Part shown: one piece after another, positions 3,922 to 6,691 of the stretch
Position numbering within the stretch: the first letter of the stretch is position 1
Layout: every line of letters starts with the position of its first letter
Assembly: GCA_021157815.1 (NCBI GenBank)
Contig: JAGGVT010000083.1
Coordinates: 1-6,691 of the forward strand
Reading direction: 5' to 3'
Source: a bacterium
GTDB lineage: Bacteria > JAJVIF01 > JAGGVT01
DNA: 6,691 nucleotides
Notes under the pieces: model-generated
The model's input: the letters and a program-made list of their open reading frames with translations, nothing else
Told to the model about the DNA's origin: nothing
Database searches by the model: none
Program-made: the position numbers and the translations under genes

Positions 3922-3973
3922 AAATTTAATTGGGGATGTTTGAGGATCTTCCGTGGTTTAGACAGATTATTCC

Positions 3974-4004: not shown

Positions 4005-4784
4005 ATGGTAGTGAACATTTCTTACAGAGCGATAGGTAGTGTGGTGTGCCTGTATCCTGAAGGCAGATTGAAAGGTGCAGCTACTGGTCCAATCAAGACT
4101 CTCATCCAAAAGCTGCTTGCAGAGGATTCAAGAAATTTCATTATCAATTTTAAAAACGTTCTTGTGATGGATGCCCCCGCGGCTACCGCCATGAACTCAA
4201 TCTATAAGGAGGTGAAAAGAAACGACGGCCGTTTGATTCTCACTGATGCAGGTTATGATGTTCTCCCTTGGCTTGAGAAGTATGCGACTGAGGTTCCCAT
4301 CTTGAACGATGAAAAAGTCGCGATTGAAAAACTGTCCGGGAAACTGGAAAACTACAAGGGAAATATAGCGGTAACCGGTGCCAGTGATATCGCAAGCGCC
4401 CTTTTCAAAGGCGCAAAGAACTACAAGGGGCTGGTTTTTCATTTTTTTGACGATCCTGAAACCACCGCTGAAAAGGTGATTGAACTGAACCCACTGGCAA
4501 TTGTTCTTAACATGGAACATGGGCAAAGTGCCATTCAGGCAATACGTAAATGGCGATTCGATCAGAATACCAAAGAGTGTCCAATTATTTTATTTGGACC
4601 GCCATCAGCAGGAGCTGACGCGAATGTCATGATTAAGGAAGGCGCGAATGATTTCATTGAGGTTAAATTCTCGCAGGCTGAAGCGCTTGCTTATCTGAAA
4701 CCTCTTGACTTCAGAAATATATTGGCAAGAAAACTTGATATGGTTCTCGCTGGCGATTACGAGGACATTATCAGGAAATCATGA
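4005..4784 (+). CDS. STAS-domain protein fused to a degenerate receiver-like domain
   Basis: From the ATG at 4005 the product is 259 residues. Residues 1 to about 105 match the anti-sigma-factor-antagonist (STAS) pattern: VVNISYRAIGSVVCLYPEGR as first strands, then NFIINFKNVLVMDAPAATAM, and NDGRLILTDA before the last helix. SpoIIAA-type STAS proteins carry a phosphorylated Ser/Thr after the Asp; here it is D56-A57, so that switch is absent. Residues of about 119-235 look like a response-regulator receiver (ELNPLAIVLNMEHG, CPIILFGPP, IKEGANDFIEVKFS). The N-terminal acidic pair is missing, the phosphoacceptor Asp is Asn (N169), and only the conserved Lys seems kept (K221). No membrane segment or signal peptide is evident. 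This start was chosen because the STAS fold begins there and a palindrome lies just upstream, but no Shine-Dalgarno is seen; ATG 3936 or TTG 3930 in the same frame remain possible. It probably acts as a cytoplasmic protein-protein regulator, partner unknown. The NYN gene follows after 73 bases. Confidence 0.82.
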   Translation: MVVNISYRAIGSVVCLYPEGRLKGAATGPIKTLIQKLLAEDSRNFIINFKNVLVMDAPAATAMNSIYKEVKRNDGRLILTDAGYDVLPWLEKYATEVPILNDEKVAIEKLSGKLENYKGNIAVTGASDIASALFKGAKNYKGLVFHFFDDPETTAEKVIELNPLAIVLNMEHGQSAIQAIRKWRFDQNTKECPIILFGPPSAGADANVMIKEGANDFIEVKFSQAEALAYLKPLDFRNILARKLDMVLAGDYEDIIRKS

Positions 4785-4857: not shown

Positions 4858-5691
4858 ATGTTCTGGGGAAAGACAGTTGTATATATCGACAATTCTAATA
4901 TTTACAGAGGAGGCAAGGATTCCGGATGGCTGCCCGAATATGAAAAGCTGATGCGCTTCCTTGAAGGGCTTGGAGGACAGCTTTGGGATGTTCATTTCTT
5001 TGCAATTGAGGAATCAAGCAGTGAGAGAACCACCACAAGTGACTTCTTTGATTACCTCCAAAAGGGGTTGGGATTCAAACTCCACCTCTACACCTATGGA
5101 TTGAAATCCATTCGATGCACCCACTGCGGGCGATTCTCGCAGATTTCAATTGAAAAGGGGCTTGATATCGGCATGGCGACACAGATTATGCGTGATTTCC
5201 ATAACGATGCTTTTGACACGATGATCCTCATGAGCGCGAACAAGGACTTCATTGAACTGATGGATTTCGTCAGGACATCGGGGAAAAAAGTCAAACTGAT
5301 GATCTGGCGAAATACTCTAAGCCAGGATTTGAACAAATTCACTGACCAATGGGGAATCGAGATTATCTATCTGGATAATCATCGCCATGAACTGGAGAAG
5401 GAGCATCGAGCCATTAAGGAAAACGCTGATTTGCCCTATGAATTCAGTAATCATTACAATTGTAGTGACCGAGGCACAAGACCATCTCAACCAAACGACA
5501 TCTTGAATAAGGAAGCCGGCATTTCCCAGAAAACAGATGCAAATGGAAATAACGCCGATGCAAATAACGCGACACAGCATGAACAATCAACTGACCCATT
5601 GAACCCGGATGAAAACCCGCCACAAGAAGAAACATCACCGGATACCGAGCATTACACTTTATATAAGGACACTCCGCTTTCTGACAATTAA
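4858..5691 (+). CDS. NYN/DUF88 (LabA-like) PIN-fold protein, putative nuclease
   Basis: The product is 277 residues. The NYN domain occupies about residues 5-175 in PIN-like order: first strand VVYIDNSNIYRG with acidic D11 (7-18), KGLDIGMATQ with D103 (100-109), MILMSANKDFIELM (122-135), then GKKVKLMIW (142-150). NYN proteins are predicted or shown metal-dependent RNases with a cluster of Asp residues. The usual third motif is SGDxDF; here it is SANKDF, so one Asp is Asn (N128) while D130 is kept. A CTHCG motif (87-91) before the second acidic site could bind metal or be redox-active; a full zinc site would need other ligands or a dimer. Residues from about 190 form a polar, N/D/Q/E/P-rich, probably disordered tail with a short DAN(G/N)N repeat. 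It follows the STAS gene on the same strand, probably co-transcribed. Its TAA (5689-5691) overlaps the outer end of the inverted repeat. RNA target and activity are unknown. Confidence 0.85.
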   Translation: MFWGKTVVYIDNSNIYRGGKDSGWLPEYEKLMRFLEGLGGQLWDVHFFAIEESSSERTTTSDFFDYLQKGLGFKLHLYTYGLKSIRCTHCGRFSQISIEKGLDIGMATQIMRDFHNDAFDTMILMSANKDFIELMDFVRTSGKKVKLMIWRNTLSQDLNKFTDQWGIEIIYLDNHRHELEKEHRAIKENADLPYEFSNHYNCSDRGTRPSQPNDILNKEAGISQKTDANGNNADANNATQHEQSTDPLNPDENPPQEETSPDTEHYTLYKDTPLSDN

Positions 5692-5792
5692 AAAATAGGG
5701 ACAGTTACCTGTTTTATGTCGCTGATAAACAGTGGCAACTGCATTTGGCTTAACCATGCGGGTTATAAAACAGGTAACTGTCCCTATTTTTT
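5690..5792. repeat. REPIN/MITE-like element, copy 2, with perfect 28-bp inverted repeat
   Basis: The 28-base arm 5690-5717 (six A, TAGGGACAGTTACC, TGTTTTAT) is perfectly complementary to 5765-5792. The 47-base centre can form two small hairpins: CGCTG/CAGTG at 5720-5734 and GCAT(TT)GG/CCATGC at 5741-5759. Together these give a three-way-junction fold. Each arm also has an internal ACAG-TTAC-CTGT mini-hairpin, giving REPIN architecture. T-runs follow the stem on both strands, so it could terminate both convergent genes. It overlaps the last two bases of the NYN stop and includes the RND stop (5784-5786) with its last Lys codons. The ends share an A-tract and GGGACAGT with the 256-373 element. 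No transposase is encoded; mobilization in trans is inferred. Confidence 0.82.
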
Positions 5793-6691
5793 TCGCAACG
5801 CATAGAGGCAAGGCATGAAGAAGAGGGCGACGAATGCCTCCATGATTAGTCCGCCGATGGCTCCGACTGCCATGGGCTGCAACATGTCAGCGCCTTCGCC
5901 CAGGTTCAGCGCAAGCGGCGTGAATCCAATTATCGTGGTTATTGTAGTCATCAGTCGAGGGCGCAGACGGATTTTCGCGGCTTGATGCACCGCATTGCGG
6001 ATACTCAAACCTTGCTTCCGGTGAAGCTCTTCCGCGTAAGTCATGAGCAGGACACCGTCATTGATTGTCAGCGCTGCGACCACCAGAACTCCGATTATCA
6101 CTGTCGCCGCGAACGCAAGTCCGGACAGATACAATGCGAATACCAAACCGGCAAGACAGAAAGGAGTGCTGCCCAGAATAAGTGTCGGAAGCCTGACACT
6201 GTTGAACTGCACGGTGAGCACAATGAATGCGAAGAATAACGCCAAACCCAACATCGCCATTACACCCTGCGTCATATCTGCCATCAACTCAGCCTGCCCT
6301 CCCAGGCTGAATTCGTAACCTGGTGGACGGTCGATTTTATTCAGTTCGGTCAGCAGTTTTGTCGAGGCGGTTGCGATATCTACACCGGATGTATTCGCCT
6401 GCACGGTTACTTGTTTGATTTGATTTTTACGGATGATTTCCAACGGCCCAACAGATTCGATCACGCTTGCAACGTCGCGTACCCGAATCGCCTTTCCCTG
6501 AGCCTGTGTCAGGACTATATCTTCAACATTCTGACGGGAGACTATCTGGTTTTTCGGAATCAGTACGCGGATATCATAGTACTCGCCGGCATAGCGATAG
6601 CGGCTGACCACCGCGCCGGTTATGAGTGATCGTAATGTTCCCGCAATATCCGCAACAGAGATGTCCAGTTCAGCTGCTTTTGTCCTGTCAA
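5784..6691 (-). CDS. RND-family efflux permease, C-terminal part (runs off right edge)
   Basis: RND permeases are inner-membrane proton antiporters that work as trimers with a periplasmic adaptor and an outer-membrane channel. The frame is open to the window edge, so this is the last 301 residues of a protein usually above 1000. It starts in the second porter region (DRTKAAELDISVADIAGTLR), passes through RDVASVIE and GGQAELMADM, and then has five hydrophobic segments fitting TM8-TM12: about fragment residues 141-161, 167-190, 193-216 (ending VVAALTINDGVLLM), 244-263 (RLRPRLMTTITTIIGFTPLA) and 269-296. It ends LFFMPCLYALRKK, a normal RND C-terminus, so no truncation is evident. A GTG at 6611 is only an internal codon. 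The proton-relay Asp residues of TM4 lie outside the window. HAE1 (drug) versus HME (metal) class cannot be settled. It converges on the NYN gene and shares the repeat as terminator. Confidence 0.93.
   Translation of the reverse strand, partial: DRTKAAELDISVADIAGTLRSLITGAVVSRYRYAGEYYDIRVLIPKNQIVSRQNVEDIVLTQAQGKAIRVRDVASVIESVGPLEIIRKNQIKQVTVQANTSGVDIATASTKLLTELNKIDRPPGYEFSLGGQAELMADMTQGVMAMLGLALFFAFIVLTVQFNSVRLPTLILGSTPFCLAGLVFALYLSGLAFAATVIIGVLVVAALTINDGVLLMTYAEELHRKQGLSIRNAVHQAAKIRLRPRLMTTITTIIGFTPLALNLGEGADMLQPMAVGAIGGLIMEAFVALFFMPCLYALRKK

Follow-up and report, generated by a model that had tools for sequence, protein, structure and literature searches.

Exploring the 6,691-nucleotide window (the whole stretch of DNA that was analysed, contig C180 of the 3.2 Mb genome G000), we found an ORF of 259 amino acids whose product joins an N-terminal STAS domain to a C-terminal receiver-fold domain (Table 1); its coordinates and residues match those given in an earlier, sequence-only reading of this DNA. 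The fusion gene is flanked by a divergent block encoding ribosomal proteins (S12-like and S7) and EF-G, and by a gene for an NYN-domain protein (PF01936, 56.8 bits) with a polar C-terminal tail. The ATG of this directly downstream gene, at 4858, is preceded by a Shine-Dalgarno-like AAAAGGA, and co-transcription of the two genes is possible. The window ends in an AcrB-type RND transporter gene (PF00873, 211 bits), cut by the contig end so that only its C-terminal part remains. The ATG at 4005 has no obvious Shine-Dalgarno sequence upstream, and further in-frame starts lie at 3930 and 3936. A start at GTG 4011 (product beginning NISYRAIG) matches the beginning of the ortholog in genome G002 (MNLRQRQVG), and as judged from sequence the true start is possibly this GTG instead of ATG 4005.

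Table 1. Features of the fusion gene and its downstream neighbours (positions in the window)
Feature	Position	Strand	Evidence
STAS-pseudoreceiver fusion protein	4005..4784	+	Pfam; AlphaFold model; ortholog in 4/4 phylum genomes
STAS domain, residues 1-113	4005..4343	+	PF01740; fold match to SpoIIAA (1thn_B)
STAS phospho-loop D56-A57-P58-A59, neither known phospho-position being Ser/Thr	4170..4181	+	Alignment to SpoIIAA; residue table
Receiver-fold domain (pseudo-receiver), residues 117-252	4353..4760	+	Fold match to KdpE (4kny_A); PF00072, sub-threshold
G125-A126 replacing acidic pair	4377..4382	+	Ortholog alignment; residue table
N169 replacing phospho-Asp	4509..4511	+	Alignment; residue table
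G198-x-P200, G198 replacing conserved Thr/Ser; GxP common to all orthologs in alignment A3	4596..4604	+	Alignment
V220 replacing conserved Lys	4662..4664	+	Alignment; residue table
NYN-domain protein	4858..5691	+	PF01936
AcrB-type RND transporter, C-terminal part	5784..6689	-	PF00873

The STAS profile matched residues 5-91 at 36.5 bits, above its cut-off of 22.6, whereas the receiver profile matched residues 160-229 at 16.8 bits, under its cut-off of 30.2. Searches of NCBIfam and of PDB sequences grouped the C-terminal half with receivers, namely PhoB, response regulator/GGDEF proteins, YycF and FrzS. An AlphaFold2 model based on an alignment of three sequences (mean pLDDT 75.9, pTM 0.48) has a STAS fold at residues 4-113 and beta-alpha alternation from residue 119 onward; given this pTM, the mutual placement of the two halves is unreliable. 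Comparison of the model with solved structures by VIA-align gave Z 16-17 to STAS structures, including SpoIIAA (1thn_B; Z 16.4, rmsd 2.1 over 111 residues), with RsbS at Z 15.9 and the Listeria stressosome (7b0u) at Z 14.6; together with the profile match, this places the N-terminal half in the STAS family. The receiver half aligned with the KdpE receiver (4kny_A) at Z 15.6, rmsd 2.3 over 119 residues, and with solved receivers generally at Z about 15. Modelling the G001 ortholog as well gave the same topology and the same structural matches. Because the NCBIfam and PDB profile matches and the model agree, we accepted the receiver fold despite the sub-threshold Pfam score; the receiver outline proposed in the sequence-only reading thus held, and the model gave no sign of a non-receiver structure.

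To become phosphorylated, SpoIIAA uses S58, and RsbV, RsbS and RsbR use the Ser/Thr immediately after the loop Asp, a position that we take to correspond to A57 here. Alignment over residues 10-79 sets MDAPA of the fusion protein against MDSSG of SpoIIAA, A57 falling at S57 and P58 at S58. With Ala and Pro at both sites, the STAS half has no known phosphorylatable position, and the Ser/Thr of the SpoIIAA/RsbV-type DS(S/T)G loop is likewise absent from all four orthologs. The earlier claim of an Ala at the phospho-position therefore stands insofar as D56-A57 carries no Ser/Thr, but A57 is only one of two such positions. In the receiver half none of the five active residues is kept (G125, A126, N169, G198, V220), indicating that it is not a phospho-competent receiver; the aromatic residue at K-3, F217, is retained. 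Alignment and residue table confirmed the Asn in place of the phosphoacceptor Asp and the missing acidic pair, both noted earlier, and extended the loss to the conserved Thr/Ser and Lys. A (beta-alpha)5 receiver fold in the model with 0/5 phosphotransfer residues, at a sub-threshold PF00072 score, identifies this half as a pseudo-receiver (ALR). Deamidation of Asn to Asp has been raised as a possibility for ALRs (PMC4395418); at N169 it would still leave a non-canonical site, the acidic pair, Thr and Lys being absent. Pseudo-receivers make up ~6% of bacterial receivers, ~20% of them are without the acidic first residue, and D, T and K are each still present in ~65% (PMC12632262). Against these frequencies, loss of all five residues lies at the far end of the known class.

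Each of the four sampled genomes of the phylum (G000, searched by family and by protein, and G001, G002 and G003) carried an ortholog as an intact ORF, and the orthologs of the other three genomes were the best matches of our protein among the fusions. Their STAS loops read D-Q-V-F (G002) and K-K-E-A and K-K-E-V (G001/G003), no Ser being found in any of the four proteins; the receiver Lys was absent from all of them, and the receiver Asp position was occupied by N, H, D and D, such that two retain Asp as the sole receiver active residue. The losses are therefore not local to this genome. The first acidic position is Gly in 4/4 orthologs in alignment A3, the G002 residue being alignment-dependent (G in A3, F in the residue table) with an Asp beside this Gly; the Thr position of G002 also varies with the alignment (G in A3, L in the residue table). 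The positions of G125, GxP, EG and R237 are conserved among the orthologs. Identity of the fusion protein of G000 to the others is 24-27%, compared with 39-46% for TIM and HDAC, indicating that the fusion evolves faster.

The orthologs clustered with 93/92 support apart from seven further STAS-receiver fusions, which form a group of their own (99/98), in a midpoint-rooted tree, whose root position does not decide between one and separate fusion events for the two groups. These paralogues are encoded in G000 (C1, C14, C159), in G002 (three) and in G003 (C184); the three of G002 are clustered (L042, G002:C2:675336-678005), and one of them has diverged from its two neighbours. Homology between orthologs and paralogues extends over almost the full length (234 columns, E 2.9e-21), and the paralogues resemble our protein in domain order, length and the lost receiver Lys (absent in 7/7). 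Unlike it, they retain an N-S-x-G motif in their STAS loop, and their receiver site carries Asp or Glu, mostly Asp.

A peptide-pattern scan of genome contigs with our protein alone detected no relatives, and with the G001/G003 pair its matches were limited to these two genomes, a Lac Pavin MAG and a Planctomycetota-labelled MAG. A profile search covered 385 genomes, 381 of them outside the phylum, and in these 381 no STAS-receiver fusion was found among the six candidates scored per genome, a depth at which rarer fusions were possibly missed; the matches there that spanned both domains were only adjacent, separate STAS and receiver genes with a stop between them. In three of these genomes (L056, L057, L061) a single-domain STAS gene is directly followed by a receiver gene, an arrangement that is a possible precursor of the fusion. 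The open-licence literature that was searched yielded no description of a STAS and pseudo-receiver fusion in either domain order.

Among known systems, the anti-sigma factor antagonists SpoIIAA and RsbV share the STAS fold, SpoIIAA with a sequence match as well, yet our protein has no Ser at either phospho-position and carries an attached receiver. The stressosome proteins RsbR and RsbS also share this fold; position 57 here is neither the Ser of RsbS nor the Thr of RsbR. The additional domain of RsbR is N-terminal to its STAS domain, and RsbS consists of STAS alone, whereas here the STAS domain is N-terminal and followed by the receiver fold. The pseudo-receivers or aspartate-less receivers RitR and FrzS have the same receiver fold with substitutions at the phospho-Asp (Asn in RitR) and at other active-site positions, and are presumed to be phosphorylation-independent (PMC12632262, PMC4395418). 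Our protein differs from them in that its pseudo-receiver follows a likewise non-phosphorylatable STAS domain. Calling the protein unusual, as was done earlier, is thus only partly justified: pseudo-receivers and STAS proteins active without phosphorylation (PMC8256260) are known separately, and it is their double-null combination in one protein that is uncommon.

Given that both phospho-switches are lost and that the relatives in 4/4 phylum genomes are alike in this, the fusion protein probably acts by binding partners. We lean towards a signalling adaptor that works independently of phosphorylation, with an N-terminal STAS domain and a C-terminal pseudo-receiver; it belongs to a STAS-receiver family that we encountered only in this small phylum. 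In its favour stand the two-domain models, the missing phospho-transfer residues, the same losses in the orthologs, and operon-like linkage to tpiA and a gene for an HDAC-family deacetylase in three of the four genomes. The STAS half would be locked in one state and bind a protein partner, which may be a HATPase of the anti-sigma/Ser-kinase type or an enzyme encoded in the operon. Output may depend not on phosphate but on protein amount, on a ligand or partner occupying the altered receiver pocket, or on both; this pocket would be marked by Gly at the first acidic and Thr positions of the ortholog alignment and by the conserved GxP. Binding-based control agrees with mechanisms listed for other pseudo-receivers, both protein/protein and ligand ones (PMC12632262), and with the unphosphorylated, active STAS proteins (PMC8256260). 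HATPase_c_2 and SpoIIE proteins are numerous in 4/4 phylum genomes, so that possible kinase and phosphatase partners exist. The fast evolution of the fusion, compatible with relaxed constraint, and its position in G000, unlinked from tpiA and HDAC, count against an adaptor. So does the loop that anti-sigma kinases contact: each lineage has rewritten it in its own way (APAA, QVFC, KKEA), which speaks against a conserved SpoIIAB-type contact. The sequence-only reading had offered a constitutive scaffold or a switch governed by ligand or partner binding; this is still the best reading, and the data do not choose between the two.

The gene neighbourhood also bears on an unlikely alternative, in which the protein regulates lower glycolysis by tuning or scaffolding the neighbouring triosephosphate isomerase/HDAC-type deacetylase pair, for instance with a glycolytic metabolite binding the altered receiver pocket and deacetylation being directed. 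In three of the four genomes the order tpiA-fusion-HDAC is conserved and operon-like, in a cluster of sugar-metabolism genes, the fusion gene overlapping or abutting tpiA; gap and pgk precede tpiA in G001 and G003, and a GNAT acetyltransferase gene precedes it in G002, where tpiA and the fusion gene overlap by 4 bases. Operon membership by itself, however, does not demonstrate interaction, and the linkage is broken in G000 although both genes are present (tpiA on C131, HDAC on C56). Two of the linked loci (L043 1-9988, L044 1-10215) share a longer conserved order, in which uvrA-like, MGMT-like and rapZ-like genes, named from translations alone, stand ahead of gap, pgk, tpiA, the fusion gene and HDAC. 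Next to the tpiA gene of G000, on C131, lie Tad-pilus-like genes (L047 2-4960), read from translations as a receiver-ParA CpaE/TadZ-like, TadB/TadC-like and a TadA-like ATPase gene.

Less likely still is a constitutive anti-anti-sigma factor, whose STAS half would hold an anti-sigma kinase as an ever-unphosphorylated SpoIIAA does and whose receiver would serve only for dimerisation. Its STAS fold is close to that of SpoIIAA in complex with SpoIIAB, and G000 has 7 HATPase_c_2 matches. The SpoIIAA loop (DSSGL), however, is not conserved among the orthologs, and beside the fusion gene there is no kinase or sigma gene and no HATPase_c_2 candidate. A decaying, non-functional relic of a formerly phospho-regulated protein, as loss of every catalytic residue and fast evolution might suggest, is very improbable given the ORF intact in all four genomes and still next to tpiA and HDAC in three, the two predicted folds and the conserved positions noted above.

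The adaptor that we favour belongs to a family joining a pseudo-receiver to a switchless STAS domain; sister fusions that bear the phospho-Ser occur in the same genomes. The switching of bacterial pseudo-receivers is described as unresolved (PMC12632262), and the fusions of this one small phylum form a natural gradation from sites that are partly intact to sites that are lost entirely. The conserved neighbourhood names TIM and HDAC as testable partners. As a long shot, the family may be a class of STAS-pseudoreceiver adaptors specific to the phylum, in which a remodelled receiver pocket that senses a ligand took the place of both lost phospho-switches and links lower glycolysis with protein deacetylation or a partner-switching network.
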